Assembly: GCA_029252045.1 (NCBI GenBank)
Contig: JAQXCD010000022.1
Location: 1 to 64,000, forward strand
Direction of reading: 5' to 3'
From: Sulfitobacter sp.
GTDB lineage: Bacteria; Pseudomonadota; Alphaproteobacteria; Rhodobacterales; Rhodobacteraceae
DNA length: 64,000 bases
Positions 17,462-63,507 of the stretch are shown here, piece by piece. The position numbers and the translations under genes are program-made. The notes beneath the pieces are model-generated. The model did not search any database. It was given only the letters and a program-made list of their open reading frames with translations, and was not told the origin of the DNA. Positions within the stretch are counted from its first letter, which is position 1. Each line of letters starts with the position of its first letter.

Positions 17462-18277
17462 TTGCGGCGATGGATTGCTCTAACCGTTATTGGACTGCTG
17501 CTCACCTCGGGGGCGGTGGCCCAAGATGCGTCGCTTAAGCGTCTCAATAATGGCGATGAAGCCAAAGCATGGGAAGCTGTTGGCCGTCTGGATATTGACG
17601 GCAAGGGCTTTTGTACTGGTGCGCTGATAGCGCCCAAGCTGGTGCTGACGGCGGCGCATTGAATGTTTGACAGTACTACAGGAAAGCGAATCGAAGAGGG
17701 CCATGTCGAGTTTCTGGCGGGCTGGCGAAATGGGCGTGCGGGTGCATACCGTGACGTTCTGCGTGTCGTTGTTCATCCCGACTTTGTCTATAACGAAACC
17801 CTTTCATCAGATCGCGTGCGCAACGATCTAGCGTTGTTGGAGCTGGAACAGCCGATCCGCAATAATTCGATCAAGCCTTTCAAAACTGCGGCCCGTCCGC
17901 GCGCGGGTGACCGCGTAGGCGTGGTCAGCTACGCACTTGATCGCTCCGAAGCCCCGTCTTTGCAGGATGTGTGTGAAGTTTTGGCGCGTCAGGACGGCGT
18001 TCTTGTGACGTCCTGCTCGGTTGATTTCGGGTCCAGTGGCGCGCCGATTTTTGTGATTGAGGACGGTGAGGCGCAGATTGTTTCAGTTGTGTTTGCCAAA
18101 GCCGAGGTGCGCGGCGACGAAGTATCGCTTGGCACGGCGCTGGGCCAACCGCTTGCTGAATTGCAGGCCGAACTGGTAGCGGGCCGCGCAATCTATCTGG
18201 GTGCCAAGCAAGGCGAACGGCGCATTCGTGCAGGCGACAATAAGACCCAGACCGGGGCCAAGTTTGTCCGGCCTTAG
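17462..18277 (+). pseudogene. Trypsin-like serine protease with in-frame TGA at the LTAAHC cysteine
   Basis: A signal peptide (IALTVIGLLLTSGAVAQ) and the start of a chymotrypsin fold (GKGFCTGALIAPKLVLTAAH) end at TGA 17660-17662. The same frame continues at once with MFDSTTGKRIEEGHVEFLAG, the catalytic Asp in RNDLALLEL and a Ser loop VDFGSSGAPIF (a variant of GDSGGP). The stop sits exactly where the family has Cys in TAAHC, so one base change (TGC to TGA) explains it. Read through, the product would be 271 aa and periplasmic. TTG at 17462 is the likely start, preceded by GGGGGCGA. The 3' part could be separately translated from the ATG at 17663 but would lack the catalytic His. Confidence 0.85.
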
Positions 18278-18897: not shown

Positions 18898-18916
18898 CTC
18901 TTTCTACAGAATAACT

Positions 18917-18944
18917 AAGGCCCGGCGCGCGCGTCGGGCCTTTT
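18917..18944 (+). terminator. Rho-independent terminator after hsp20
   Basis: AAGGCCCG / CGGGCCTT stem with a 10-nt G+C-rich loop, followed by TT on top of the stem's own TT (TTTT), 20 nt after the hsp20 stop. Confidence 0.85.
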
Positions 18945-19015
18945 GCGTTGTTGGAGTCACCAAATGTAAACCTGTCACGGGCATCTTCTGCATCATCACA
19001 ATGCGGGAGAATTCG

Positions 19016-19756
19016 ATGAGCTTTTGGTCTTGGCTATGCGGCGCGATATGTGGCCTATTCACGGCAACCACCCTCTACGCGGGTGCCATCACTTTGTTGG
19101 ATGTAGGCAGCAAGCCGCGTAGTGCTCTCATCCCCGTTATAGCGCCTGCGCCGGAGGTTCGGACAACCCCGCTCGCCCCATCCAGCCTGTTTATTGGCCG
19201 CACCGGCAGCAGCCTGTTTCCCGAGATAGAAAAGGTTGAGCCGGTGAAGGCGACAGCGGGTGTGTCCGGCATGTCCAGCCGGGCTGTGTTAGTCATTCGT
19301 GACATCATCCAGTAGGCGGAATCCAGTCGCGCAGGTTATGACGCGGTGCAACATGGTGCAAAGATTGCGCCGCCGCGCCTGCCCACCCAGATGACCGTAG
19401 CCGAGATTTATGTATGGATTGACGCGACGCCGAACCAGCCACATGCCATCGGGCGTTATCAGTTTATTCCGTCCACCCTGCGGCGTGTCATGCGCACTGT
19501 GGGTGCCTCTCCAGACCAGCGATTTTCACCGGAGCTGCAAGATAGGCTGGCCGATGTTCTGCTGGCAGAAGCGGGGTATCACGAAGCCAAGCGGGGTGAG
19601 GTGAGCAGACGCGCCTTTATGAATAACCTTGCCAAGATTTGGGCCGGTTTGCCGAATGACACAGGCCGGTCACACTATGACAGCTATGCGGGTAACAAGG
19701 CCAGTATGACATGGGCGCGGTTTGATGCGCAAATGGCGCAAGTGTTTGGGCAGTAA
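19016..19756 (+). pseudogene. Membrane-anchored lysozyme-like protein with in-frame TAG
   Basis: The first part (ATG 19016, GGGAG 6 nt upstream) encodes a signal or anchor (WLCGAICGLFTATTLYAGA), a Pro-rich linker and IRDIIQ, then TAG at 19313-19315. The frame continues with AESSRAGYDAVQHGA, HAIGRYQFIPSTLRRVM and SYAGNKASMTW, a lysozyme-like (GH104-type) layout in which the Glu of AES would be catalytic. Both parts are in one frame, so a single nonsense change explains the break. Without it the product would be 246 aa and act on peptidoglycan in the periplasm. The second ORF has no signal peptide of its own. Confidence 0.75.
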
Positions 19757-19796
19757 CGTGCCGCCGACACCGTCAGCATCGGCGGCATGAAGTGTT

Positions 19797-21269
19797 TTAG
19801 ACGCTCATGCAGATGTATTTCATCTCCAGATAGTCCTCGATGCCGTGGTGGCTGCCTTCGCGGCCAAGACCGGACTGCTTTACGCCGCCAAAGGGCGCAA
19901 CCTCGGTCGAGATCAGGCCGGTGTTCACACCGACGATGCCGTACTCCAGCGCTTCGGCTACTTTGTACACGCGGCTTAGGTCTTTGGCGTAGAAGTAGCT
20001 GGCCAAACCAAAGATGGTGTCATTCGCCATGGCGATCACATCATCCTCGGTGTCGAACTTGAACAGCGGGGCAAGCGGGCCAAACGTCTCTTCCTGCGCT
20101 ACTTTCATGTCCTGCGTGACGCCGGTCATGATGGTGGGAGCAAGGAAGTTGCCGTCCATCGCGCCATTGGCACCCAGCGCGATTGTGGCGCCTTTGGCTT
20201 TTGCATCGTCGATATGCTCTTTCACCTTCTCGCCGGCGGCGGGGTTGATTAGCGGGCCAAGGGCAACGCCTTCCTCAAACCCGTCGCCGACCTTCAGCTT
20301 TTCTACTGCTGCAACCAGCTTGGCTGCGAAAGCGTCATAAACACCGGCCTGAACGTAGATGCGGTTGGCGCAAACACAGGTCTGCCCGTTGTTGCGGAAC
20401 TTGCACAGGATCGCCCCCTCAACAGCTGCATCCAGATCGGCGTCGTCAAACACGATAAACGGCGCGTTACCGCCCAGCTCCATGGAGCATTTCATGACCT
20501 GATCGGCGGCCTGTTTCATCAAGATACGACCCACTTCGGTGGAGCCGGTAAAGGTCAGCTTGCGTACGGCGGGGTTCTCGCAGAACTCTTTGCCGATGGC
20601 GGAGGAGGAGCTGGAGGGCACCACGTTGAACACGCCCGCAGGAATGCCTGCACGCTCGGCCAGCACACCCATCACAATGGCGGACAGCGGTGTCTCGGCG
20701 GCGGGACGCGCGACAAAGGCACAGCCGGCGGCCAGCGCGGGCGCGGCTTTGCGGGTGATCATCGCGTTGGGGAAGTTCCACGGCGTGATGGAGGCGGCCA
20801 CACCGATAGGCTGCTTGATTACGGTGATGCGCTTGTCACGTTGGTGACCAGGGATCGTCTCGCCGTAGATGCGCTTGGCCTGCTCACCGAAGAATTCGAT
20901 GAAGGACGCGCCGTAGGCAATCTCGCCTTTGGCTTCTGCCAGCGGCTTACCCTGCTCGGCGGTCAGAATCATGCCCAGATCGTCCTGATTGGCCATCATC
21001 AGGTCGAACCATTTGCGCATGACTGCGGCACGTTCCTTACCGGTCCATTTGGCCCATTCCTTTTGTGCCGCTTCCGCTTGCGCGATGGCACCGGCCACCT
21101 GTGCGCGGCTCAGGTTTGCCACTTTGGCCACCACATCGCCGCGTGAGGGGTTGGTCACATCAAATGTGCCATCCTCGCCCTCTACCCATTTTCCACCGAT
21201 ATAGGCGCGGGTTTCCAGCAGGCTGGGGTCTTTGAGCATGGATTTCAGGTCAGTTGTCGAAGCTGTCAT
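19797..21269 (-). CDS. gabD: Succinate-semialdehyde dehydrogenase, NAD(P)+
   Basis: 490 aa. Aldehyde dehydrogenase family; oxidises succinate semialdehyde from GABA to succinate. Catalytic Cys lies in NNGQTCVCANR, catalytic Glu in MELGGNAPFIVFDDAD, and the cofactor segment is ITPWNFPNAMITRKAAPALAAG. C-terminal FGGVKQSGLGREGSHHGIEDY is typical of GabD. The ATG at 21269 is chosen because AAGGAG then has 7-nt spacing. The track ORF to 22073 is an extension through the opposite gene. gabT is 33 kb away. Confidence 0.94.
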   Translation of the reverse strand: MTASTTDLKSMLKDPSLLETRAYIGGKWVEGEDGTFDVTNPSRGDVVAKVANLSRAQVAGAIAQAEAAQKEWAKWTGKERAAVMRKWFDLMMANQDDLGMILTAEQGKPLAEAKGEIAYGASFIEFFGEQAKRIYGETIPGHQRDKRITVIKQPIGVAASITPWNFPNAMITRKAAPALAAGCAFVARPAAETPLSAIVMGVLAERAGIPAGVFNVVPSSSSSAIGKEFCENPAVRKLTFTGSTEVGRILMKQAADQVMKCSMELGGNAPFIVFDDADLDAAVEGAILCKFRNNGQTCVCANRIYVQAGVYDAFAAKLVAAVEKLKVGDGFEEGVALGPLINPAAGEKVKEHIDDAKAKGATIALGANGAMDGNFLAPTIMTGVTQDMKVAQEETFGPLAPLFKFDTEDDVIAMANDTIFGLASYFYAKDLSRVYKVAEALEYGIVGVNTGLISTEVAPFGGVKQSGLGREGSHHGIEDYLEMKYICMSV

Positions 21270-22366: not shown

Positions 22367-23444
22367 ATGGCTAATCTTGATGCGCAGGTACGCGAATCTC
22401 AGGCACAAGTTGCCGAAGCGCAGGGCAAAATTGCCGAGCTGACCAGCCGGATCGAGACGGCACGCGCAAAAAATCAACGCGGGGGAAGTGTCCGATATTG
22501 ATATCGAGAACGCCTCACTTGAGGATGTTCACGCGCACACCGAGGTAATGAACGCCAATATTGCAGAGCTGATTATGGGGCTGGATGATGTCACGGCCGG
22601 TTTCAGCCGCGACTTTGACGAAATGCGCTCCAAGACAGGCTGGGAGAGCATGATTGGCATCTTCTTCTCCGCCAAGGCAGACAGCATGCGTCAGGAACGG
22701 GTGCGCAGCGCCAGCATTGACGATAGGTTGCAGGACCTGATTGCGAAATCGGACACTATTGTGAAGCTGCTGGAAGGCCAACTGGCAGTTCTGGAAGAGC
22801 AGAAGACCAAGGTTGAGGGTAACCTGACCGAGACGCTTAGCGACCGCGAGGCGACCGTGGCCGAGCTTGAAAGCCTGCGCACAGATATCGGAAACATGGA
22901 CCCGGAGATCATCAAGCTGGAGAATGCCATCGCGTCCGAGATGGATGCGGCCAAGCGGACTGCGCTGGAAAGCCAGCCGGCGGCAGCGAACGCCCGCTAC
23001 AACGCCATGGTGCAGGACGAGCAGGTCAAACTGGCCAAGAGCCAGACGCTGGAGCGCTACATCGACAAGGGCAAAACCTGGGTGGACAGCTTGCAGAACC
23101 AAGCGGCCACGCAAATGGTGCTGATCAACAAGCTACAAACCGATACCAAGCAGCGTGTGGTGCTGTATGACGCGCTAACCAAATCGTTGAAAACCGCGCA
23201 ACAACAGGACGTAGCCCACCGCATCAACGAGATCGGTGTAAAGACGGACCAAGAGGCGCAATCCGCCATGGCTGGCATCGGTGCCGCCACCAACGCGCGG
23301 ATGGCCGAGATGATGGAAGCCCACGAGGATCACATGGTCTTTGCCCGCGACGTTCTGGAGCAAAAGGCGAAGGCCGACGAGCGGTTTGCGCGGCGGTTTG
23401 CCAAGATTATCGAGAAGCATGATAGCAATGCGTATGGGGAATGA
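22367..23444 (+). pseudogene. Cluster gene A: coiled-coil protein with one-base frameshift
   Basis: The ATG at 22367 follows a GGCGGAG site and opens MANLDAQVRESQAQVAEAQG, then runs into a stop after the A6 tract at 22468-22473. Removing one A (or one G of the nearby G5) joins it to the long frame at ARAKINAGEVSDIDIENASL. The joined product is 358 aa, mostly coiled coil (ELESLRTDIGNMDPEIIKLE, many Gln/Glu/Lys heptads), somewhat like TelA- or PspA-type coiled-coil proteins but without clear homology. The GTG at 22488 used in the track has no proper ribosome site. First gene of the AAA+ cluster. The 224-nt region before it shows no clear promoter. Confidence 0.75.
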
Positions 23445-23568
23445 GCCAGCGCAGCAGGTGCCTGATCCCGCGCCTGCTGTTAAGTCTCGGCGGTTGTTCA
23501 AGGTTGCAATGTTGACAGAAGCGGCAGTTGTACTTGGCCGCGATTTATCGGGTCTGGTCGTTAGATGA
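23434..23568 (+). CDS. Possible 44-aa ORF linking cluster genes A and B
   Basis: ATG at 23434 overlaps the end of gene A; stop at 23566-23568 overlaps the start of gene B (ATGA). The product contains PAQQVPDPAPAVKSRRLFK and a short hydrophobic stretch. It could provide translational coupling to gene B, which has no ribosome site of its own. It has no recognised family and may be chance. Confidence 0.25.
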   Translation: MGNEPAQQVPDPAPAVKSRRLFKVAMLTEAAVVLGRDLSGLVVR

Positions 23569-24683
23569 CGAACCCCAACGTCGATCACTACGACCTGAAG
23601 GACACCTTCGCCAGCCGCCGGTATTTTACCAAGTTCAGCGGCATAATGCAGCATATGCTGCGTGTGGCCGGCGTGATGGAGGCCGAGGGCCAGTTGAACC
23701 GTGACGAAGTCACGATCCTCACCCGTTACGCGGCCAGCCTCACCCACACTTTCCGCGCCCTGAGTTGGAAGTATCTGCTCGTAGGCCGCGAGACGGGCCG
23801 CTTTTTCGGGTCACTCACCATTGACGGGCATGACAGCGGGTTTCCCGTGGCCGAAGAGCTGATGAGCATGGCAAATGATGCGCATCAGGCGCACAGCCAC
23901 CTGTCTTCGATGCCGTCTGTGGATGCGCTGAAAGACAAGATGGTGTCGAGTATCCTCAGTGATCGCAGCATCCCTACAAAGCTCCAGTTTAGTCTCTCGC
24001 AAAGGCTCTATTACGAGGAATTGTTGAAGGGCGACATGTTCTGGGTGCGCAATGATGCGCAGGCCGAATGGTTGGGCGATGTCGGTAAACGCCGCAAATA
24101 CAGGCTGCATTGGGCGACCTATGACAGTCAGGTGAACCTGCCCGTGATCTACATGATGGAGGTCGAGGATTCGGGCCGCGAAGCGTTGCCCGTTGACGCG
24201 CGCCGCTGGCTGGAGGTGCAGTCGCATCTGAGCGCGCAGGCGCTGGGCGGGCTGAAACTGGTCACGATCGCACGCGGCTTTGATGAGGATTTTGCGGATC
24301 TGCATCCTTAACGCCTGCGCCGTTTCCACCTTGGGCCGATGTACAGCCATGCCTACACTCACCAAAACGGCCCTCTGCGCGATGTTCTGGCCGAGGCAAA
24401 AGCCCCCGAGGGCCAAGACTGGGCCATGGTCTGGACCGAGGAAGAGCTGCTGTCAGACCGTGTGATTGAAGAAAAAGAAGGCTGGTTTTCGACGGTCGAG
24501 CGGCAGATTTTTGCGCTGGACCCGATGGGCAATCAACTGCCCGATATGGGTGCCACGCGCACTGTCCGAAGCATCATTTTACCCCAGCGTCCCTATCAGG
24601 TGCTGGAAGAGCATAACCCGCCGGGTTTTATGGGGGTACGGAAGTTTGTTGTGAGCAGCGCGGGACGGGTGCTGCAATATTGA
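23565..24683 (+). pseudogene. Cluster gene B: uncharacterised protein with in-frame TAA
   Basis: The frame from ATG 23565 encodes YDLKDTFASRRYFTKFSGIM onward, stops at TAA 24309-24311 after FADLHP, and continues in the same frame as RLRRFHLGPMYSHAYT and on to 24683. One base (for example AAA to TAA) restores a 372-aa protein. The product is soluble-looking, with no signal peptide or known catalytic motif. I do not recognise a family. Two separate products (248 and 114 aa) are possible but the second has no ribosome site at ATG 24339. Confidence 0.7.
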
Positions 24684-26702: not shown

Positions 26703-27508
26703 AGAGTAAAATCAGAACATCGGGTGCAATATGGACGCGCGGCCCGTTTTGGTTCGGTGTTTTGCTTTCAATAATTGTTGTCGGCTTTGGATACTACAGT
26801 TTGATAAATTGGCCATTATGCGGTGAAATTGGACCATGCATGTCGAACTGGAATCAGCTGAGGTTTCGCTCAACGCCTAATGAGATTGGTGATATGCTAG
26901 CTGGCTTTGCAGGTGCACTTGCATTTATTTGGATCGTTGTGACTGTCTTGCTTCAAGCCGCAGAACTTAGAGAGCAAAGAGAGCAGTTTGAAAAGATGGC
27001 CGATGCTCAAGAAGATCAAGTGAAAATACTGGTAGAGCAGCGGAAGTTTTATGAGAGGGAAGAAAATTCTCGACGTGAAGCATCAGCACGCCTTCAAATC
27101 GATGTGCTTCTTCAAGGTATTTCCGATTTGATAGATTTAGAAGCGCGGTCATCTTCAATCATTAGCGAAGATGGGTGGCCGCAAGTCTTTGGTGACCGTG
27201 GTGCCGATACCGTGGATATTCACCTGTTTAAAAATAGAAATTCAGTGTGCTCATTCTTTTATCAACTTGATGGTGAAATAGTTAGACTTTCTCGGGCTAT
27301 CGAGCCGTATTTGATAATTCAGAGAAGATTAGAAGAAGTAGCTCAGCTTTTCGAAGTCTTTCCAGATGATCAGATTGCTAGACTAAGAAATATGGGGCTT
27401 TACGACTTGCAAACTGGCGTAAATTCGTTTGTCGAAGCAAATATCTGGGAACAGATTGCATCAGATCCGGCTAATCCAAACAATTTTATTAATGGAGGAA
27501 TAGCATGA
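26699..27508 (+). CDS. Cluster gene D: A+T-rich membrane-anchored coiled-coil protein
   Basis: 269 aa. Two transmembrane segments (WFGVLLSIIVVGFGYYSL and MLAGFAGALAFIWIVVTVLL) are followed by a coiled coil (AAELREQREQFEKMADAQED) and a soluble C-terminal part. The layout resembles membrane proteins often found as accessory genes. Base composition is unlike its neighbours: two sampled 60-base lines have 26 and 22 G+C. The gene is nevertheless stitched in by overlaps on both sides (GTGA with gene C, ATGA with gene E). Function unknown; a transferred gene is the likely origin. Confidence 0.75.
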   Translation: MKSKIRTSGAIWTRGPFWFGVLLSIIVVGFGYYSLINWPLCGEIGPCMSNWNQLRFRSTPNEIGDMLAGFAGALAFIWIVVTVLLQAAELREQREQFEKMADAQEDQVKILVEQRKFYEREENSRREASARLQIDVLLQGISDLIDLEARSSSIISEDGWPQVFGDRGADTVDIHLFKNRNSVCSFFYQLDGEIVRLSRAIEPYLIIQRRLEEVAQLFEVFPDDQIARLRNMGLYDLQTGVNSFVEANIWEQIASDPANPNNFINGGIA

Positions 27509-28879
27509 ACCGCCTCATCCGCGCCGGCCTGATGTTCGGCAACCTCTTCCATGTCCATTCGCCGGCCTTGGTGGAACGCTATAACCGTGCGCTGCACCAT
27601 CTGACGGGCAAGCGCACCGCGCTCACCGATTTCTACATCGATCTCTCCGGCTACTCGCCCGAAGTGGGCGACGAGCTGGACGACCCCCTCTACCTCAACC
27701 ACAAAGGCGTGAACCGGCAGTTTATCTTGCTCAGTGTGGAGCAGCGCACGGCGCCGTTGCTGAGCGTGAAATTCTCGACCTCCAAGACCATCCTGCAAAA
27801 GTTCATCGCCGAAAACGAGGCGGCGCTGTTTGCGTTGACTGCCAAGGATGCGGTGGCGGGGGAGTTGGTGAACTCGGTCTATGATGTGTCCCAGCCGAAA
27901 CGTCTGTTCGACATCCGCCGTATCACAATCGACGCCGACACCACGGGCGGCACGGTCAAAGACGCCGCCAAGCTGGCCGAGATGGTCGACCGCTTCCGCG
28001 ATTCCGAGAGTGGCTGGTATGACGACGTGCTCATCGCCGAAATGATCGGCCTTGCGGGCAAGACGGGCGATGTGGTGCGCAATCCCGTCAAACTCAAGGT
28101 CATGAGTTTCGAGCAGCGCAATTTTTGGACGGCGCATTTTGGCGGCCTTTATGTGTTTCAGGACGTGGAGCACCCCGCCGTCATCGCGCCTGCGGGCAAG
28201 GACGGGCTGGACGATTTGCCGCTTAAACACGTTTACGACGCGACCCAACGCAACCAGATTGCGCATTTCTTCCAGCTGAACGGGTTGACCCAGACGATAC
28301 TGGAGGCGCGCGGCATCAAGTCCGCCGCCATTCTACGGCAGAAGATGGATTTCATCCTGATTGATGCGGTGGCTGGGCAGGAGGGTGTGGAGTTGACGGG
28401 CCTAACCCGCGCCGACCTGCGCCGCCTTGCGCGGCAGCACGCCGACCACCTGCCGCCCGAATTCCACACGCTGGGGCAATTGGTGAACTGGGCCGAGAAT
28501 GGCGGCGCTTTCCCCAACATCGACAGTGCCGATCCTGTCTATTTCTACACGTTGCGCGCGGCGGATACGTCTGACGCGCCACTGGTGAATATGCTGCTGG
28601 CCCAGCTGGCGCCCAAGGACATCCGCCAGCTGTTCATCTGCCACAAAGACCTGTTTTACACGACCTACGCTGGCTGGCCCGATGCCAAACGCGCCTATGT
28701 TACCGATTTTCTCGAACGCGAGTATCAGGTGGACAAGGCCGGCGTGCGTGACGCACATGTTTGGTCATGCGCCCGCAGTTCAGGTGCCACCCCTGCCGCG
28801 CAAAGGCAAAAAACCGCCCCCCGTTCCGGACCGCATCGCGGCTGTCGGGCCGTGGGGCGCCGTGACGTGGAGGAAATAG
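27505..28879 (+). pseudogene. Cluster gene E: uncharacterised protein with C-terminal frameshift
   Basis: Starts NRLIRAGLMFGNLFHVHSPA and stays open to 29040, but after VDKAGVRDA (about 28755) the frame becomes Arg/Pro/Gly-rich nonsense overlapping gene F. In the +1 frame the sequence continues as FGHAPAVQVPPLPRKGKKPP and ends WGAVTWRK at TAG 28879, 3 nt before gene F, which is the natural arrangement (457 aa). One extra base near 28750-28757 explains it. I recall similar proteins in Rhodobacterales (possibly DUF6638) but cannot confirm. No catalytic motif seen. Confidence 0.7.
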
Positions 28880-53493: not shown

Positions 53494-53658
53494 ATGACAT
53501 TCGAGATGTTGCTTGGCGGCCTTATGATATTGATGATGGCGGCCGGTATAGTTGTTGTGATGACATCGTCACACAGCGGTAGGTCGAACGGCAGGAGCGG
53601 CCGTGCAAAGAGGGCAAAAGCCGCGATTAAGCTGTGGCTAGAAAACCGGTGGCGTTAG
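53494..53658 (+). CDS. 54-aa membrane protein next to the stress module
   Basis: Absent from the track. AGGAGG lies 5 nt before the ATG. One hydrophobic helix (LGGLMILMMAAGIVVVM) is followed by a strongly basic tail (RSNGRSGRAKRAKAAIKLWL). Its own EcfG-like promoter suggests membership of the stress regulon. The stop region overlaps the XRE-cupin gene by 21 nt on the other strand. No family recognised. Confidence 0.7.
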   Translation: MTFEMLLGGLMILMMAAGIVVVMTSSHSGRSNGRSGRAKRAKAAIKLWLENRWR

Positions 53659-54189
53659 CGCACTGACAATCTCGCACGGCTCGGTGCCAATGTTGCGGAA
53701 ACGATGTGGCAGGCGGCTGTCAAAGAGATATCCGTCACCGCAATTCAGGAGGCCTATGGTGTCTCCCACGGTCAATTCGATCTGACCGCGCGTGATGATT
53801 CCCGCTTCCTCGCCCTCGTGTGCCAGAAATTCAGGGCCGGTATCTGCGCCAGCAGGATATGTTTCATGCAACACCTGAAGGGTGTGCTTGCGGGCGTTGC
53901 CCAATTGTCGCAAGGAGACCTGCCCGGGACCGTCTTGTGTCAGCTGGATAAATTCGTCTGCGCGGTAGATAAATTTCGGGATGTCCTGTTCTTCGATGGC
54001 GCCGAAAAACTCGGCCATTGAAATGGGGATGGCGTCCAGAAGGCTTTTGAGCGACGCGACAGAGGGCGAGGTTTTATCTGTCTCGATCAACGAGATGGTG
54101 CCATTTGTCAGCCCCGCGCGTGTGGCCAGTTCACGCTGTGATAGGCCGCGTTCGGTGCGGATTTGTTTGAGCCGTTGTCCGATGTCCAA
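53638..54189 (-). CDS. XRE-family regulator with C-terminal cupin
   Basis: 183 aa from TTG 54189 (DIGQRLKQIRTERGLSQREL). HTH at residues 5-60 (LATRAGLTNGTISLIE), cupin sensor at 100-183 (FLAHEGEEAGIITRGQIELT, DSRLPHRFRNIG). Such proteins (PuuR-like) control polyamine, GABA or amino-acid genes. Divergent from gabT, its likely target. The 40-residue extension in the track has no homologous look and lacks a ribosome site. Confidence 0.85.
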   Translation of the reverse strand: MDIGQRLKQIRTERGLSQRELATRAGLTNGTISLIETDKTSPSVASLKSLLDAIPISMAEFFGAIEEQDIPKFIYRADEFIQLTQDGPGQVSLRQLGNARKHTLQVLHETYPAGADTGPEFLAHEGEEAGIITRGQIELTVGDTIGLLNCGDGYLFDSRLPHRFRNIGTEPCEIVSALTPPVF

Positions 54190-54300
54190 AAGTGCGATCC
54201 TGTTAGATAAATGCGGGCGCTGCCTCAGCGGTGTTTTGCCTGAAATGACCATCCCTCGCGGAAAAGTACAAGTGTGCAGGTTATCCAGATTGACAATTAA

Positions 54301-54333
54301 ATTAAACACGGCACAAGGCTATATTAAACGCGG
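54301..54333 (+). promoter_or_regulatory. Direct repeats upstream of gabT, candidate XRE-cupin operator
   Basis: ATTAAACACGG (54301-54311) and ATTAAACGCGG (54323-54333) are 22 bp apart, two helical turns, and a TTGACA box lies just before (54290-54295). Confidence 0.45.
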
Positions 54334-54374
54334 GTTCTGCCGCGCCCAATTTTCACTTGCTTCAGGAATATGTC

Positions 54375-55754
54375 ATGGCCAGCACCGCAAAACGCGCGCC
54401 ACGCAAAAGCGCAAAGAAGTCGCCACAGATTGCAATCGTCGAAGACGCGGTTCCTGTGACTTATACCAACGCTGATCTGGTCCGCCGCCGCGAAGCGGCT
54501 GTGCCGCGCGGTGTCGCATCTGCAGCCCCGGTATATGCGTCCTATGCAGAAAATGCAGAGCTGTGGGATGTGGACGGCAAGCGTTATATCGATTTCGTGG
54601 GCGGTATCGGCGTGCTGAACACGGGCCACCGTCACCCTGGCGTGATTGCAGCGGCCAAGGCACAAGAAGACCTCTACACGCACACATCCTTTCAGGTTGT
54701 GCCCTATGCGCCCTATATCGAACTGGCGGAAAAGCTGAATGCGCTTGCCCCCGGTGATGCGCCCAAGAAGACACTGCTGGTCACCACAGGTGCCGAAGCG
54801 GTTGAGAACGCGGTGAAAATCGCACGCGCTGCCACAGGCCGTCCCGGGGTAATTGCCTTCACGGGTGGTTATCACGGCCGTACGCTGCTGACATTGGGCC
54901 TGACGGGCAAAGTGTCACCTTACAAAAAGCTGGTGGGGCCTTTCCCTGCGGATGTCTTCCGCGCCCCTTTCCCGAGTGTGCGTGACGGGATCACGGTGAA
55001 GGATGCGCTGATTGGCCTGAAAAACCTGTTCCTGACAGATGCCGATCCGTCGCGTATTGCGGCAATCATCATTGAACCTGTTTTGGGCGAAGGCGGGTAT
55101 ACGCCTGTGCCATTCGAGATGATGACTGCCCTGCGCGACATCTGTGACGAACATGGCATCTTGCTGATTGCAGACGAAGTTCAGGCGGGCTTTGGCCGGA
55201 CGGGCAAGTGGTTTGCGATTGAACATTCCGGCGTTGTACCTGACCTGATCACCGTGGCGAAATCCATGGCGGGTGGCTATCCGCTGGCGGGTGTGATTGG
55301 CCGTGCGGATGTGATGGACGCGATGGACCCGGGCGGTCTGGGTGGCACATATGGCGGCAACCCTGTTGCCTGCGCCGCTGCACTGGCCGCGATCACCGCG
55401 ATCGAGGATGAAGACCTGCTCGCGAAATCCATCGCCATGGGTGACAAGCTGAAGGCGCGTTTTGCCGAGATCGGCGCACGCGCTGCTCCCTACCGGATGT
55501 GGGATATTCGCGGTCTGGGCGCGATGGTTGCAGTTGAATTTGTCACCGACTTCGAAAGCATTGCTCCGGATGCCGCCCTGACCAAACGTGTCATTGCGCA
55601 CGCGCTGGAGGGTGGTTTGCTGCTGCTGAGCTGTGGCATGTCCGGCAACGCCATCCGCGTGATGGTGCCGCTTACAGCTTCGGAAGAGATTGTGGATGAA
55701 GGTCTGGCAATTTTTGAAGCGGCTCTGGCTGCGGCTGTGGCCGAGGTCGCGTAA
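54375..55754 (+). CDS. gabT: 4-aminobutyrate aminotransferase (class III)
   Basis: 459 aa. PLP enzyme converting GABA and 2-oxoglutarate to succinate semialdehyde and glutamate. [58 protein letters not shown], the Asp in [15 protein letters not shown] and the PLP-lysine in [15 protein letters not shown] are clear. The Lys/Arg/Ala-rich N-terminal 25 residues are unusual. Start ATG 54375 with AGGA 7 nt upstream. GabD, the next step, is encoded at 19.8 kb. Confidence 0.92.
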
Positions 55755-55784
55755 GCGCCTTTTATCTATGTGACGGCAATTATG

Positions 55785-55812
55785 CGCGCGAAGGGTTACC
55801 TTCGCGCGTTTT
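55785..55812 (+). terminator. Rho-independent terminator after gabT
   Basis: CGCGCGAAGG-GTTA-CCTTCGCGCG followed by TTTT, 30 nt after the stop. Confidence 0.9.
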
Positions 55813-55865
55813 CGCTTTTCGCGGTGCGGTGAATGTCGTTATCGATTGCGCGGGATGATTGCATA

Positions 55866-56717
55866 ATGCGCCTGTTATTTCTCTTGATTTGTGTGATGCT
55901 GGCTGCCCCGTTGCGTGCACAGGATGCGCTGCGCGTTGGTGTTTTTGGCGTGGTTGAGGGGCTTGATCCGCTTGTGGTTGCCGGCCGCGAGATTTCTGTG
56001 CCGGATGATGTGCGGACGATCAGCCCTTTGGGACCAGGACAGGCAATTGCGCTTGGTGACACTCTGGCTGTTGTTGTGTCGGTTGAGGGCGGGCGCCTCG
56101 TCGCTGTGCGGATGCTGGAGTTCTTTCCTGTTGTGGGGCCGGTTGCGGATGTCCGTGAGGGGACCGCAACTATCATGGGGACTACCGTGCATCTTCCACC
56201 AGAGACCTCCCTGAAATCGGGTCAATGGGTTGCGCTAAGTGGATTGTGGAGCGGGGAACAGGTCATAACCACCAAAGTGCGGCGGGTTGATTGGGATGGG
56301 TTTGGCCAGCTTGCCGGTAGTGTGGAGCTTGCGACCGCTGACCAACCTTTGCGCATCGGGCGCAGTACGGTCTTTGGGGCGGACCCTCCGAAAGACGGGT
56401 TCGGCGACGGGATATGGATGTTGAGCGGTCAGCCCGAGGCGGAAGGACTTCGCGTGCGCCTGATGTCCAAGGGTGTTTTTGGGAGCAAGGTTGATCTGGT
56501 GTTGTGGCAGGGTCATGCTTCGCTGCCCGTTGCCTCACAAACCTACATGATCCACGGGACCGGCATCATTGGCACTGCAACAGATGCCCTGATGCCATCG
56601 GCAGGGGCTTTGATTACGCGCTGCGCATGGCAAGGTCGTGTGGTACGCGCCTCCCCCGAGGGACTGGAGGCGGCGTTTGAGGCGCTAGACTGTGTCAGGC
56701 ATATTCCGGCGGATTGA
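55866..56717 (+). CDS. Exported protein, DUF5666-like
   Basis: 283 aa with signal peptide (RLLFLLICVMLAAPLRA). The mature part has repeated beta-rich units (GVVEGLDPLVVAGREISVPD, GQAIALGDTLAVVVSVEGGR) resembling the small barrels of DUF5666 proteins, and ends with two cysteines. ATG 55866 precedes the signal peptide directly; ATG 55833 is an alternative. The 3' end overlaps the remnant on the other strand by 23 nt. Confidence 0.65.
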   Translation: MRLLFLLICVMLAAPLRAQDALRVGVFGVVEGLDPLVVAGREISVPDDVRTISPLGPGQAIALGDTLAVVVSVEGGRLVAVRMLEFFPVVGPVADVREGTATIMGTTVHLPPETSLKSGQWVALSGLWSGEQVITTKVRRVDWDGFGQLAGSVELATADQPLRIGRSTVFGADPPKDGFGDGIWMLSGQPEAEGLRVRLMSKGVFGSKVDLVLWQGHASLPVASQTYMIHGTGIIGTATDALMPSAGALITRCAWQGRVVRASPEGLEAAFEALDCVRHIPAD

Positions 56718-57046
56718 ACGTATCAGCACGCGCCCGCGACCAGCGGTCCTTGTATCCCATGTGATCTGCGGCATCTTCATCCACCAGAAAACCTTCGGGT
56801 AGATAGGGGAACGCGCGGTTGCCTTGGACCATCGAGCGGTCGGACTGACGTTGCATCAGGTGGTGGGGCAGGAAATCACTGGGCAGGGATAGGCCGGCCG
56901 CGCCTGTCATTTCGCCCAGTGCCTTGAGCGTATTGCGGTGGAAGCGGGCCACACGTTCCGATTTGTGGACAGGGTCAAGCGCGCGGGCGCGCAGCGGATC
57001 TTGGGTGGCGACGCCCACGGGGCAATGATTGGTATGGCAGGCCTGG
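56695..57046 (-). pseudogene. Glutamate-synthase-like gene, C-terminal remnant
   Basis: On the minus strand about 115 C-terminal residues are recognisable: QACHTNHCPVGVATQDPLRA (the cysteine motif of FMN-binding glutamate synthase domains), HRNTLKALGEMTGAAGL and AFPYLPEGFLVDEDAADHMG, ending at the TGA at 56695. Upstream of the cysteine motif the family likeness stops at about 57047, where an ATP-grasp gene begins on the other strand. The long open frame to 58062 beyond that point is only a shadow. Confidence 0.85.
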
Positions 57047-57996
57047 GGCATGATCTGGTTCTGCAATCTGCCTTCGGCGATAGCGGGCACACCACGTTCT
57101 TTATCAAGAACGAGGCTGACTTCCGCCGCCACCAGTCCGAGATCATCGGCGAGGGTGAGATCAAGATCATGAAGCGGATCAGTTGCCGTGGCGCCGCGAT
57201 CGAGGCTTGTGCGACCCGTGAAGGTACAATTGTTGGCCCGCTCATGACCGAGCTTGTCGGCTTTAACGAACTGACGCCTTATCGCGGCGGTTGGTGTGGC
57301 AATGAAATCCTGTCCACTGCTTTCCCGCCAAAGGTCCGTCAGCAGGCGCGCGATCTGACTTTCAAGTTCGGTGAGCAGCTGCGCAAGGAAGGCTATCGCG
57401 GATACTTCGAGCTGGACTTCTTGATCGACAAAAAGACAGGCGAGCTTTGGTTGGGCGAGTTGAACCCGCGCATCACTGGCGCGTCGTCGATGACCAACCA
57501 CGCGGCCTTTGCCCACGCGGATGCGCCGTTGTTCCTGTTCCACTTGCTGGAGTTTTCGAAGAAGAAGTTCAATCTGGACGTGGACGAGTTGAACGCACGT
57601 TGGGCAGAGCCGGACAATATCGACAGCTGGTCGCAGATGGTGATCAAGCACACCAAAGACAGTGTGGACACTTGCACCACCAGCCCCGAGACAGGCATCT
57701 ATAAAATGCGCGAAGACGGCTCGGTTGTGTGGGACCGCTTTGATTATCAACGCCGCGCGGTGGAGAGTGAGAACGAGGCGTTCTTTCTGCGTATCATGCG
57801 GCCGGGTGATTACCGCTATGAGGGGGCCGATATTGGCATCCTTGTGACGCGCGGACGGTTGATGACAAAAAGCTTCCAGCTGAACGAGCGGGCAAAGAAG
57901 TGGATTCACGGGATCAAGTCGGCGGTTGAAGGCAAACCGTTGCCCGCGGCCTCCGCTGATCCGTTCTTGTCCGATCCGGCGTTCAAGATCCTTTAA
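57047..57996 (+). pseudogene. ATP-grasp (biotin carboxylase-like) gene, C-terminal remnant
   Basis: Likeness begins at HDLVLQSAFGDSGHTTFFIK and continues with GPLMTELVGFNELTPYRGGW, the metal-binding GYFELDF and GELWLGELNPRITGASS to the stop at 57996. The N-terminal half, with the biotin-carboxylase-type fold and start codon, is missing. The track start at 56938 lies in unrelated sequence. It probably acted with the following C45 hydrolase and CoA transferase, judging from order and spacing (26 nt). Confidence 0.85.
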
Positions 57997-58021
57997 GGTA
58001 AATCTGTCAGGAAGGCGGCCC

Positions 58022-58993
58022 ATGTACTGGCGCGCAATCTCCGAGGATTTGCCCGGCCCCAAGTGGGCCGGGCTTTTCCGTGAATATTGGTCCGATTATC
58101 GGGCTTGGTGGCTCAAAGAAGGTGAGACTGCCCGCCCGACCTATGCCGCAAGCCTGCGCGCCCTGCGGACCCATATGCCCGAGATGGTGCCGCTGTATGA
58201 AGAGCTGTGCGAGCTGGCAGGCGGCGGTGATCACGCAGCACGGTTCCTGAGTTTCTATTGCCCGCCCCCCTATCTGGCGAGCTGTTCACAGGCGGTTTGG
58301 GGCGGCAAACAGCCCGTGCTTGTGCGGAACTATGACTACAACCCCAAGGCTTTCGACAGCCTTGTCCTGCGAACCAAATGGCTGGGCCGCGCGGTGATGG
58401 GTACGTCTGACGGGTTGTGGGGGCTGGTGGACGGTGTCAACGACAAGGGTCTCTCGATCTCCCTTACGTTTGGCGGACGGCGTGTGGTGGGCGAGGGGTT
58501 CGGCGTGCCGCTGATCATTCGTTATGTCCTGCAAGTCTGCGAAACGGCAGAAGAGGCGGGCGAGGTATTGGCCCGCGTGCCTACGCACATGAGCTATAAC
58601 GTGACCGTGCTGGACAGAAAGCGGACCTACCTGACGGTCATGATGTCGCCGGACCGGCCCGCGATTGTGACAAATGCGGCAGTGGCCACGAACCATCAGG
58701 AAAATGTCGAATAGATCAGCCACGCGCGGTTTACATCTACCGTCGAGCGGGAGCGATTCTTGTTGCAGCGCTTGCGCCTGCAACGTGACCCTGAGGAAAA
58801 GTTCATCAACGCGTTTCTGCGCCCGCCTCTGTATTCCACGGCATTCCGTCACGGGTTCGGAACGCTCTACACAGCCGTTTACAGACCGCGTAAACAAGAG
58901 ATGGAACTGCGGTGGCCGGATGTGATCTGGCCGCTGTCGTTAAAGGATTTTATTGAAGGGGCGCGTGAGGTGACCCTGCCGGGAGTAGTGTAA
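58022..58993 (+). pseudogene. C45-family autoproteolytic acyltransferase/hydrolase with in-frame TAG
   Basis: ATG 58022 starts YWRAISEDLPGPKWAGLFRE. The Ntn nucleophile Cys is in YLASCSQAVWGG, followed by LVRNYDYNPKAFDSLVLRT and GVNDKGLSISLTFGGRRV. TAG at 58712-58714 follows NHQENVE, and the frame continues ISHARFTSTVERERFLLQRL to TAA 58993. TGG to TAG would explain it; intact length 323 aa. The truncated product (about 230 aa) keeps the nucleophile but loses about 93 residues. Stop overlaps the CoA transferase start by one base. Confidence 0.85.
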
Positions 58994-60096
58994 TGTCGGG
59001 ACCGTTGGCATCGTTGAAAGTAGTCGAGTTTTCCGGCCTTGGGCCTGCGCCGCTGGCAGGGCAGCTGCTGGCCGATCTGGGTGCCGATGTGATCACCGTG
59101 GACCGCAAGGCCGCTCCTGCCGATCCTACGGACATCAACAGACGTGGAAAACGCTCGGTTGTGCTGGACCTCAAGCGGCCAGAGGGGCTGGCGGCGGCGC
59201 ACAAGCTGATTGCAGCGAGTGGTGTGTTAATCGAAGGGTTCCGGCCCGGCGTGATGGAGCGGTTGGGGTTGGGGCCTGAGGACTGCCCCGACACGCTGAT
59301 CTATGCGCGGATGACCGGATGGGGGCAGGACGGGCCATGGGCGCAGACGGCAGGGCATGACATCAATTATCTGGCGCTGACCGGCGCGTTGCACGCAATG
59401 GGGGATGCCGACCGTACTCCTGTTCCGCCGCTGAACATGGTGGCTGACTATGGCGGCGGTACAATGTTTTTGCTGCTGGGTATTCTGAGCGCTGTGATCG
59501 AGCGCGGCGTGTCCGGCAAGGGACAGGTGGTCGACGCGGCTATGGTTGACGGTGTCCCTGCCATGATGGGCCTGATCCATGCCATGCTGGCGCAGGGAAA
59601 ATGGAGCGAGCAACGCGGGACCAACTGGCTGGATGGCGGTGCGCCGTTCTACCGGTGCTACACCTGCGCTTGTGGCGGCTACCTGTCGGTCGGTGCGTTG
59701 GAGCCGCAGTTTCATGCGCTGTTGCTGGACAAGGCGGGTTTGCCTGCCGCGCATCAGGCGGACCAGAATGATACGGCGCATTGGTCCGCGCGGCGTGATC
59801 TCTATGCGCAGGCATTTGCGCGCAAGACGCGCGATGAGTGGGCGGCCATCTTCGCGGGAAGTGATGCCTGTGTGGCTCCTGTGCTGACGTTTTCTGAGGC
59901 GCAATTCCACCCACATATGGCAGCGCGGCAGACCCTTATCGCGCCGAACGGTGTGGTGCAGGCGGCCCCCGCACCCCGCTTTAGCCGGACGGCGCCTTTG
60001 CCCCCCTCTGTTCCGGGCGCTGTCGGGGCGGAAACAAATCAGGTGTTGGCAGCCCTAGGGTATAGCGACAGTGAGATTGCCGAAATCGCGGGCTGA
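58993..60096 (+). CDS. CaiB/BaiF-family CoA transferase or racemase (AMACR-like)
   Basis: 367 aa. Class III CoA transferase fold: VVEFSGLGPAPLAGQLLADL, KRSVVLDLKRPEG, LIEGFRPGVMERLGL and the active-site region TAGHDINYLALTGALHAMG. The GHDINYLALTG form is typical of alpha-methylacyl-CoA racemases. Terminal gene of the remnant-containing set. Confidence 0.92.
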   Translation: MSGPLASLKVVEFSGLGPAPLAGQLLADLGADVITVDRKAAPADPTDINRRGKRSVVLDLKRPEGLAAAHKLIAASGVLIEGFRPGVMERLGLGPEDCPDTLIYARMTGWGQDGPWAQTAGHDINYLALTGALHAMGDADRTPVPPLNMVADYGGGTMFLLLGILSAVIERGVSGKGQVVDAAMVDGVPAMMGLIHAMLAQGKWSEQRGTNWLDGGAPFYRCYTCACGGYLSVGALEPQFHALLLDKAGLPAAHQADQNDTAHWSARRDLYAQAFARKTRDEWAAIFAGSDACVAPVLTFSEAQFHPHMAARQTLIAPNGVVQAAPAPRFSRTAPLPPSVPGAVGAETNQVLAALGYSDSEIAEIAG

Positions 60097-60168
60097 TGAT
60101 TGTTGCAAAAATGTACATGGACGCAAATGGGTGTGTTATCTCTGTGCCAAAGGGGCTAGATATAGTCG

Positions 60169-60813
60169 ATGTTTCGAGAAGATGGTATTTCCCGTGGCCC
60201 GTTGGAGGGCCTGATTGTTTGCCCTGTATGTGATGCAACCTATCAGTTGCAGCGCCCCAAAAATGGTGAGCGCGCGGTGTGCACGCGGTGTCACAAAGTT
60301 CTGATCGCCCCGCGCCGCAAGGCCGGTATGCAAATCATTGCGGTTGCGGTTGCGGTTGTTGTCTTGATTACAGCGGCCAGCGTTTTTCCCTTCCTCGAAA
60401 TATCCGCGGCCGGCCGCAGCAATGCTGTGTCTATCATTGATGCGGCGCTTTCTTTCACGCAGGGGCCTATGTTGGTGCTGGCGCTGATGACAGCTGGATT
60501 TATCCTGTTTGTTCCGCTGGTCCGGATGCTGCTGACGCTCTATGTGCTGATCCCCGTTGTGTTGGACCGCCCGCCGGCGCGCCACGCGATCAGGGCGTTC
60601 CGCTGGGCCGAGGCGATGCGCCCGTGGTCGATGGCCGAGATTTTTGCATTGGGCTGTGCGGTGGCTTTGGTGAAAGTGGCGGGTTTGGCGACGGTTAGTT
60701 TTGGTCCTGCGTTTTGGATGTTCGGCGCCCTTGTGGTGCTGGTCATCGTGCATGACAGTTTTTTGTGTAAGTGGTCTGTATGGAATTCTCTGGAACATCC
60801 CAAAGAACGGTAA
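60169..60813 (+). CDS. pqiA: PqiA-like membrane protein, first half
   Basis: 214 aa. Zinc-ribbon-like CPVCDATYQLQR and CTRCHKVL, then four transmembrane helices (AVAVAVVVLITAASVFPFLE and following) with AMRPWSMAEIFALGCAVAL and LATVSFGPAFWMF. PqiA proteins are often a single 400-residue chain with two such halves; here they are two genes. Confidence 0.9.
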   Translation: MFREDGISRGPLEGLIVCPVCDATYQLQRPKNGERAVCTRCHKVLIAPRRKAGMQIIAVAVAVVVLITAASVFPFLEISAAGRSNAVSIIDAALSFTQGPMLVLALMTAGFILFVPLVRMLLTLYVLIPVVLDRPPARHAIRAFRWAEAMRPWSMAEIFALGCAVALVKVAGLATVSFGPAFWMFGALVVLVIVHDSFLCKWSVWNSLEHPKER

Positions 60814-61430
60814 CAGCCCGTGAGGCGGGGTTGGTCGCATGCACGCGCTGTACGCGGGCATGGCCGTTGGGCACGCCTGAATGCGGGCGCTGTGGCGCCA
60901 AGCTGGTGTCGCGCGACGAACACAGCCTGCAAAAGGTGTGGGCGCTGTGGGTTGTCGGGCTGATGTGTTACGTCCCCGCCAATGTCTACCCGATGCTCAA
61001 GACCAAACAGCTGTTTACGGTGGATGAGAGCACGATCATCGGTGGCGCTGTCGAACTCGCCCACCACGGTGCATTTGGCATCGCGGCGATCATCCTGGTG
61101 GCTTCTGTTGTGATCCCTTTGGGCAAGTTCTGGGCGGTTGCCTTTCTGGCTGTCAGTGTCCGTCAACGGGGTGGGTTCACCTCGCACCGGCGTTTGCTGA
61201 TGTATGAGGTGGTCGAGTATATCGGCCGCTGGTCTATGATCGATATATTTGTCGTTGCCATTCTTTCGGCACTTGTGCAACTCAAGGGCCTTGCGACGAT
61301 CTCTCCCGGTCCTGCGGCGTTCTTTTTCGCACTTTCTGTAATTTTTACTATGTTGTCTGCCCAAGCTTTTGACCCACGGATGATTTGGGACGCACAAGAC
61401 AACGATAACGAGGCACCTGATCATGGTTGA
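60780..61430 (+). CDS. pqiA: PqiA-like membrane protein, second half
   Basis: 216 aa. CTRCTRAWPLGTPECGRCGA ribbon followed by four helices, YVPANVYPMLKT, VIPLGKFWAVAFLAVSV, YEVVEYIGRWSMIDIFVVAI and LATISPGPAAFFFALSV. Overlaps the first half gene by 34 nt and pqiB by 8 nt. ATG 60780 chosen over GTG 60771. Confidence 0.9.
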   Translation: MEFSGTSQRTVTAREAGLVACTRCTRAWPLGTPECGRCGAKLVSRDEHSLQKVWALWVVGLMCYVPANVYPMLKTKQLFTVDESTIIGGAVELAHHGAFGIAAIILVASVVIPLGKFWAVAFLAVSVRQRGGFTSHRRLLMYEVVEYIGRWSMIDIFVVAILSALVQLKGLATISPGPAAFFFALSVIFTMLSAQAFDPRMIWDAQDNDNEAPDHG

Positions 61431-63507
61431 TACTCCCCCCACAGTCGAAATTCAGGCGGCGCGTAAGCCTCGGCTGTCCGGCGCATCCTTCATTTGGGTG
61501 ATCCCGCTTCTGGCGTTGTTTGTGGCATTTGGTGTGGCATGGCAGTCCTATTCGGCGCGCGGGCCGGTGATTATCGTCGGATTCACCGATGGTTCGGGTA
61601 TTGCCGCGGGCGAGACCAAGTTGAAGTACCGCGATATCGAAGTCGGGGAGGTCGAAGAGGTCAGCTTTAGCGAAGGGTTGGCGCAGGTTGATGTGCATAT
61701 CCGCTTGCACAAGGATATTGCTGAATATGTCGATGCCAGCTCGGTTTTCTGGATTGTTCAGCCTGAGGTGACCGCACAGGGCGTGTCCGGTCTCAGCACT
61801 GTTTTGAGCGGTGTTTATATTGAAGGCTCGTGGGATAACGAAGTTGGTGAATATGCGGATACCTTCAAGGGCTCCGACGTGTCGCCGCTGATCAAACCCG
61901 GCGAAAGCGGTTTGCAGATTGCGTTCCGTACGACCACAAACGGCACACTCACCGACAATGCGCCGATTATGTTTCGTGGCATTCAGGTGGGGCAGGTCGG
62001 GCGCGCCCAGATTTCGCGCAGCGGTGCTTTCGCGATCACCGAAGGTCTGATCTATGAGGAACACCGCCATCTGATCAGCTCGTCGACACGGTTCTGGGAT
62101 ACCTCGGGGTTTAGCCTTTCGGTGGGCCCGACGGGGGCCGAGATCGACTTTTCCTCGCTTGCCACATTGATCGGCGGCGGGATTACGTTCGACACTTTTG
62201 TATCGGGCGGGGATTCTGCCTCCGACGGCGAAGTGTTCGAGGTCTTCTCGGATAAAGAGCAGGCGCGTAACAGTCTCTTCACCAAGTCCGAAGTTGATCC
62301 GCTGCGGATGAGTATCATCTTCGACGAGAATATCTCTGGTCTCGCGGTTGGGGCTGCCGTTGAGTTGAGCGGCTTCCGTATTGGCTCGGTTGAGAGCCTG
62401 TCGGGGATTGTGGACTTTAACCAGTTCGGTGACAGCCGTGTGCGCCTGAATGTGATCGTTTCGATCCAGCCCTCGCGCCTTGGATTGCCCGGCGAAGCAA
62501 CGGCTGCCGCTGCTTTGGGTCTCCTGCGTGACCGTGTGACAAGCGGGCTGCGGGCACGGCTGGCTTCGGCCAGCCTGTTGACGGGTGGATTGAAAATTCA
62601 ACTGGTGGAAGTGGAAGGCGCAACAGCTGACCAAATGCTTATTTCCAAGGTTGATCTGCCGATCATGCCAACAACAAAGAGCGAAACTTCGGATGCTGCG
62701 GCAACTGTTGAAGGCGTGTTTACGCGGATCAACAACCTGCCCATCGAAGAGCTGCTTAACAGCGCGATCAATGTGATGAATTCTGCTGAAGTGTTGATGT
62801 CAAACGGTGATCTGCAGAAAGTCCCTGGTAATGTGAGCACGCTGCTGAGTGATATTTCCGGCATTGTGACATCTGAGGATGTGAAGAACATTCCGGTCGC
62901 TTTGAACGCGACGCTGGTGCGTGTAGAAGGGCTGGTCGCAGAGCTGGAGAAGCAGCGCATCGCTGAGACATTGGGCAAGACGCTTTCCTCCGCTGCGGAA
63001 GCGGCTGACGCTGTGACCTCATCGGCTGCGGGTGTGCCCGAGCTGATTGCGAACATCCAGACTGTGGCCGAGAAAGCCGCATCGCTGGAGTTTGATACGC
63101 TTATTCAGGAGCTGACATCCCTCACTTCCTCTGCCGAGGCGTTGATCAGCAGTCCTGAGACAGCACAGCTGCCCGTGGCGCTGTCCGGTGCTTTGGACCA
63201 GCTGAATGCAACGCTGAAAGAGCTGCGCGAAGGCGGGGCGGTGCAGAACGTAAACCAGACACTGGCGTCTGCGCGTAATGCGGCGGATAGCATCGCGGTT
63301 TCTGCCCGTGATCTGCCGCAAGTCATCGACCGTCTGAACACCCTGTTTGTGCAAGCTGGCCAAACAATCGAAGGCTACAACAAGGGCGACCAGTTGAGCC
63401 GTGCTGCGGAATCCGCGTTGCGCGATATTCAACAAGCCGCCGGCGCGCTGGAAAAACTGGCGCGTACCATCGAACGCAATCCGAATTCTCTGCTGCTAGG
63501 AAGATAA
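61423..63507 (+). CDS. pqiB: MCE-domain lipid transport protein PqiB
   Basis: 694 aa. One N-terminal transmembrane helix (FIWVIPLLALFVAFGVAWQS) and three MCE domains starting at about 47 (GPVIIVGFTDGSGIAAGETK), 165 (GLQIAFRTTTNGTLTDNAPI) and 290 (MSIIFDENISGLAVGAAVEL). The C-terminal 270 residues are helical and Ala/Leu-rich, consistent with the PqiB needle that spans the periplasm. Fewer MCE domains than YebT. Confidence 0.93.
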   Translation: MVDTPPTVEIQAARKPRLSGASFIWVIPLLALFVAFGVAWQSYSARGPVIIVGFTDGSGIAAGETKLKYRDIEVGEVEEVSFSEGLAQVDVHIRLHKDIAEYVDASSVFWIVQPEVTAQGVSGLSTVLSGVYIEGSWDNEVGEYADTFKGSDVSPLIKPGESGLQIAFRTTTNGTLTDNAPIMFRGIQVGQVGRAQISRSGAFAITEGLIYEEHRHLISSSTRFWDTSGFSLSVGPTGAEIDFSSLATLIGGGITFDTFVSGGDSASDGEVFEVFSDKEQARNSLFTKSEVDPLRMSIIFDENISGLAVGAAVELSGFRIGSVESLSGIVDFNQFGDSRVRLNVIVSIQPSRLGLPGEATAAAALGLLRDRVTSGLRARLASASLLTGGLKIQLVEVEGATADQMLISKVDLPIMPTTKSETSDAAATVEGVFTRINNLPIEELLNSAINVMNSAEVLMSNGDLQKVPGNVSTLLSDISGIVTSEDVKNIPVALNATLVRVEGLVAELEKQRIAETLGKTLSSAAEAADAVTSSAAGVPELIANIQTVAEKAASLEFDTLIQELTSLTSSAEALISSPETAQLPVALSGALDQLNATLKELREGGAVQNVNQTLASARNAADSIAVSARDLPQVIDRLNTLFVQAGQTIEGYNKGDQLSRAAESALRDIQQAAGALEKLARTIERNPNSLLLGR

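Follow-up and report, generated by a model that had tools for sequence, protein, structure and literature searches.

Kilobase-scale losses between short direct repeats, with no insertion sequence at the junction, were described in a survey of rearrangements in Salmonella, in which deletions were splits of ≤5 kb and the threshold deduced from verified deletions was ≥8 bp of homology at the junction (PMC3411829). The locus described here likewise shows a kilobase-scale loss between short direct repeats and has no insertion sequence at its junction; unlike the Salmonella deletions, it involves ~10 kb and an imperfect repeat, and it is a fixed or sampled state, whereas the spontaneous deletions of Salmonella were caught in the act. 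The sequence affected belongs to a gene cluster that is intact elsewhere in the Rhodobacterales, for example in Sulfitobacter undariae DSM 102234 and on plasmid p1 of Roseobacter ponti. Its core consists of genes for a hydrolase, an Orn/Lys/Arg-decarboxylase-like enzyme, an ATP-grasp protein and a C45 enzyme, in an order kept in the relatives examined, and a literature search on this combination found nothing on function. In R. ponti, an ABC importer lies downstream, and the stretch from glutamate synthase to hydrolase is free of TRAP genes. Around the core, glutamate-synthase and transporter genes come and go among relatives. The locus studied here has the same flanking genes in the same order as the intact cluster, of which its gene stumps and its C45 gene are direct remnants; unlike the intact cluster, it has six genes deleted or truncated.

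The window analyzed covers the first 64 kb of contig C22 (150,662 bp) from a Sulfitobacter genome of 3.08 Mb (68 contigs, 90.17% complete, 0.17% contaminated). No 16S rRNA gene was found in the whole 68-contig genome, and this absence together with the completeness indicates that it is probably a metagenome-assembled genome. The closest relative found was S. undariae DSM 102234 (hereafter G018), followed by the genome G035. The comparison set comprised one genome per species; the junction and the PRK06524 ATP-grasp gene were surveyed in 62 genomes of the genus, and the ATP-grasp and C45 genes were compared with those of 80 relatives taken from GTDB genomes.

When the 1.5-kb stretch at 56600-58100 was searched in 60 relatives, 27 genomes of the same genus each gave two separate matches with a common break point: the left match ended at query position 446-448, on the glutamate-synthase side, and the right match began at 437-451, on the ATP-grasp side. 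Both matches lay on one contig in 20 of the 27 genomes, ~10 kb apart. Measured against G018, the window was colinear over 53639-57047 and again over 57036-62483, with 10,217 bp of G018 in between; the corresponding gap in G035 was 10,142 bp, also with colinear flanks, and four further relatives examined had the same arrangement. On the R. ponti plasmid the same two ends are ~6.3 kb apart, a shorter spacing because TRAP genes are absent between the ends there. The original prediction had been that one deletion spans the starts of two divergent genes. The single deletion and the orientation stood; the two genes are not neighbors in relatives, where four complete genes separate the intact pair.

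The segment missing from the window comprises, in G018, the remaining part of a 540-aa FMN-type glutamate-synthase-like gene on the minus strand, followed on the plus strand by genes for a TAXI-family TRAP solute-binding protein, a TRAP fused permease, a carbon-nitrogen hydrolase and a 935-aa Orn/Lys/Arg-decarboxylase-like PLP enzyme, and finally by the N-terminal third of the PRK06524 'biotin carboxylase'-like ATP-grasp gene, likewise on the plus strand. A search with the whole G018 segment matched only the two flanks in the source genome and found the lost 10 kb on no other contig. The sole match to the decarboxylase-like protein elsewhere in that genome was a paralogue of ~33% identity, an 801-aa frame on another contig. 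Because the flanks are colinear on both sides, the missing 10.2 kb is absent genome-wide and the C45 gene is interrupted, a single deletion of ~10.2 kb, by which four complete genes would be gone and two truncated (six genes hit), is very probably the explanation of the locus. Upstream, an intact class III aminotransferase gene (gabT-like, plus strand, 54357..55754, with its start probably at 54375; PF00202, 413 bits) occupies the same position in relatives and on the R. ponti plasmid. Between it and the deletion, a weakly DUF5666-like protein encoded at 55833-56717 has evolved much faster than its neighbors (dN 0.29 to G018).

Two C-terminal remnants had been predicted to abut near AGGCCT at 57039-57044, each without its N-terminus, and profile and relative comparisons bore out both points, including the coordinates. 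On the minus strand, the stump of the FMN-binding glutamate-synthase-like gene (56695..~57045, with its stop at 56695) retains ~116 of 540 codons; it covers only positions 317-368 of the 369 in the PF01645 profile, so that the central FMN domain is incomplete, and it corresponds to residues 422-537 of the 540 in the S. undariae protein at 90% identity. On the plus strand, the stump of the PRK06524 gene (~57046..57996) retains ~317 of 485 codons. It scored 481-487 bits against NF005096, below the 684-bit cut-off, over profile positions 177/181-482 of 493, and corresponds to residues 167-485 of the 485 in the S. undariae protein at 97% identity. A 455-codon minus-strand frame at 56695-58062 was rejected as a gene, being an antisense open frame through the ATP-grasp gene.

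The deletion junction, GGCAGGCCTGGG (57036..57047, no strand), contains the AGGCCT motif. The left flank accounts for the window to 57045 (57047 in G018), and the right flank accounts for it from 57046, or from 57036 where GGCAGGC is common to both. In G018 the two breakpoints read GGCAGGCTTGGG (left copy) and GGCAGGCATCGG (right copy) and are identical at 10 of 12 bases; the repeat in G035 is identical at 8 of 12, and the longest identical run between the two breakpoints in relatives is ~7 bases. When breakpoint pairs were placed at random in the same two genes, only 0.035% gave a 12-mer match across the join as good as that of G018. The homology length at the time of the deletion and the ancestral copies of the repeat are reconstructions from such comparisons. 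The perfect 7-bp repeat was rejected as the exact site of crossover: the bases at 57043-57045 (CTG) follow the left flank, and the right flank has ATC or ATT here in the closest relatives. Therefore, either the join lies at 57045-57047 or the right copy of the repeat was different in the ancestor. No mobile element or foreign sequence was present at the join, where the flank alignments overlap and leave zero unaligned bases, and loss mediated by an insertion sequence was ruled out on this ground. An imperfect short direct repeat of this kind, present at both breakpoints and retained as a single copy at the junction, fits illegitimate recombination.

Among the 62 genomes of the genus, the junction sequence occurred in this genome only; two other matches to the junction pattern, each with two mismatches, proved to be the intact gene. 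The ATP-grasp gene was present from its first residues in all 80 relatives. Apart from the source genome, 57 of the 62 surveyed had a near full-length PRK06524 match; the gene ended at a contig edge in G021 and was truncated within a contig only in the source genome. It was absent from G063, G081 and G082, all 99% complete, and independent absence therefore occurs.

The neighboring gene for a C45 autoproteolytic acyltransferase/hydrolase (58022..58993, plus strand) is interrupted by an in-frame TAG at 58712-58714. This codon replaces a tryptophan that is conserved in 77 of 77 aligned relatives. Positions 12-241 of the 313 in the NF040521 profile precede the stop, so that profile coverage is interrupted, and a genome-wide family search found this gene as the single C45 match in the source genome, with one TAG read through. 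No stop was found in the C45 stretch of those of the 80 relatives whose contig includes it. The next gene, for a CaiB/BaiF CoA-transferase (58993..60096, plus strand; PF02515, 238 bits), follows the C45 gene here and in close relatives, and it has neither a stop nor an excess of private changes. Thus, the original prediction of a broken C45 gene was correct and that of a lost pathway is supported by the absence of the transporter, the hydrolase and the decarboxylase-like enzyme and by the reduction of two enzymes to stumps, but the CaiB/BaiF gene is intact.

Amino-acid changes private to the source genome, counted against those on the S. undariae branch, indicate relaxed constraint since the deletion. 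The ATP-grasp stump had 6 versus 0, compared with 26 versus 42 in six intact neighbors (Fisher p = 0.005), and the ATP-grasp and C45 genes together had 13 versus 5 (p = 0.016); when the short glutamate-synthase stump was added to these two, the p value was 0.08. The small size of these selection tests and a dS close to saturation call for caution. In the ATP-grasp stump, I209T, H235Q and S272L fall at sites that are invariant in 79-80 of 80 relatives. Besides the stop, three ATP-grasp and two C45 changes introduced residues seen in no relative at sites on which 77-80 relatives agree. The stumps are still highly conserved, yet they have changed at otherwise invariant sites, and the loss is therefore recent. 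From ~10 excess changes over ~1,400 nonsynonymous sites on a branch with a near-saturated dS of a few tenths, we infer, as a rough estimate, that constraint may have been lost within the final few per cent of the branch.

On this evidence, the following course of events is proposed. Illegitimate recombination (replication slippage, annealing or end joining) between imperfect direct repeats of ~12 bp would have joined a point inside the glutamate-synthase-like gene to a point inside the ATP-grasp gene by a ~10.2-kb deletion. This step would have removed the N-terminal four-fifths of the former gene, the four genes in between, any promoter upstream of the transporter genes, and the N-terminal third of the latter. 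A cluster so reduced would no longer be able to work, and the stumps and the C45 gene, the latter already with a nonsense codon, would be drifting. Comparison with relatives shows the deletion itself and how far it extends; the recombination route, the sequence of steps and the loss of expression are what we infer.

A sub-case of this explanation is that the deletion is real but polymorphic, being carried by part of the population, and that the haplotype with the deletion is the one captured in the assembly. With stumps this young and a single genome per species in the comparison, there is room for such a haplotype; however, the assembly holds no second-haplotype contig with the lost genes, and the private changes at invariant sites suggest that there was time enough for the deletion to spread. 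We regard polymorphism as possible and on balance unlikely. Far less probable is an assembly artefact, in which an assembler or a chimeric read joined two places of a living genome that has the full cluster. A probable metagenome assembly that is in 68 contigs, 90% complete and devoid of 16S invites this suspicion, and several other broken genes on contig C22 could reflect poor consensus. However, the breakpoints share at most ~7 identical consecutive bases in relatives. The word lengths usual in assembly are far above ~7 bases, and repeat collapse needs longer identity; collapse of a repeat by the assembler was therefore rejected, the sequence common to the breakpoints being too short. In addition, no other contig carries the lost 10 kb, the junction lies well inside its contig, at 57 kb from one end and 93 kb from the other, and the independent C45 stop and the stump changes at invariant sites suggest that constraint was already gone. 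Finally, it is hardly credible that the ATP-grasp stump is a new working gene, in which a 352-codon frame (56938-57996) with a GTG start located antisense to the glutamate-synthase-like stump makes a shortened functional protein, for although this frame is open, with 97% identity to S. undariae across 319 residues, it lacks the N-terminal third of the ATP-grasp protein, the partner genes are gone, a search of 56600-59100 detected no sigma-70-like promoter (a weak test), invariant residues have changed, and youth alone accounts for the open frame.

The preferred reading, a real and recent deletion, is of an ordinary kind of event, namely pseudogenization and gene loss by deletion. Roseobacter-group genomes are reported to have ~3.5-15.3% pseudogenes by cluster (PMC12661815); the truncated and stop-interrupted genes found here, at a few per cent, resemble those pseudogenes, and the published figures refer to pelagic clusters and to another method, not to the source genome. 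The source genome would thus represent a recent natural knock-out of a cluster that nearly every Sulfitobacter species and much of the Rhodobacterales retain, and so recent a loss is of use in asking about the role of the cluster and the conditions under which it can be dispensed with.

When contig C22 was scanned with the genes of G018 and G035, further genes were broken relative to both. In reciprocal scans between G018 and G035, the flags were, by our judgement, mainly start-region stops and antisense frames. A trypsin-like protease gene (17462-18274 of the window) has a TGA at 17660 that replaces the cysteine after its TAAH motif; the gene is intact in G018 and G035. A 455-codon gene (27505-28873) has a frameshift near 28755 relative to both. 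Beyond the window, two well-conserved genes on the same contig are interrupted relative to these two relatives, one by a Gln-to-TAA change at 72234 and one by a Ser-to-stop change within 86399-87394. The broken genes on C22 suggest modest genome erosion or poor consensus. A small genome, fewer ABC transporter domains than in three relatives, and the fresh stops and frameshift on C22 would fit erosion; none of the ABC-transporter domains among the matches listed had an internal stop, which is uninformative on erosion. That the lineage is in early genome erosion, perhaps after a niche change, with the loss of the cluster among the first steps, is a tentative reading to which we would give about one chance in four.

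Two other regions of the window also vary. At 22367-24680, two genes look frameshifted or stop-interrupted relative to G035 (a split at ~22480, and a Lys-to-stop change at codon 249), and G018 looks degraded in this region as well. The stretch at 18898-19800 is ~0.9 kb here, ~21 kb in G018, ~15 kb in G035 and <0.2 kb in G011, G016, G031 and G028, and looks like an insertion hotspot.
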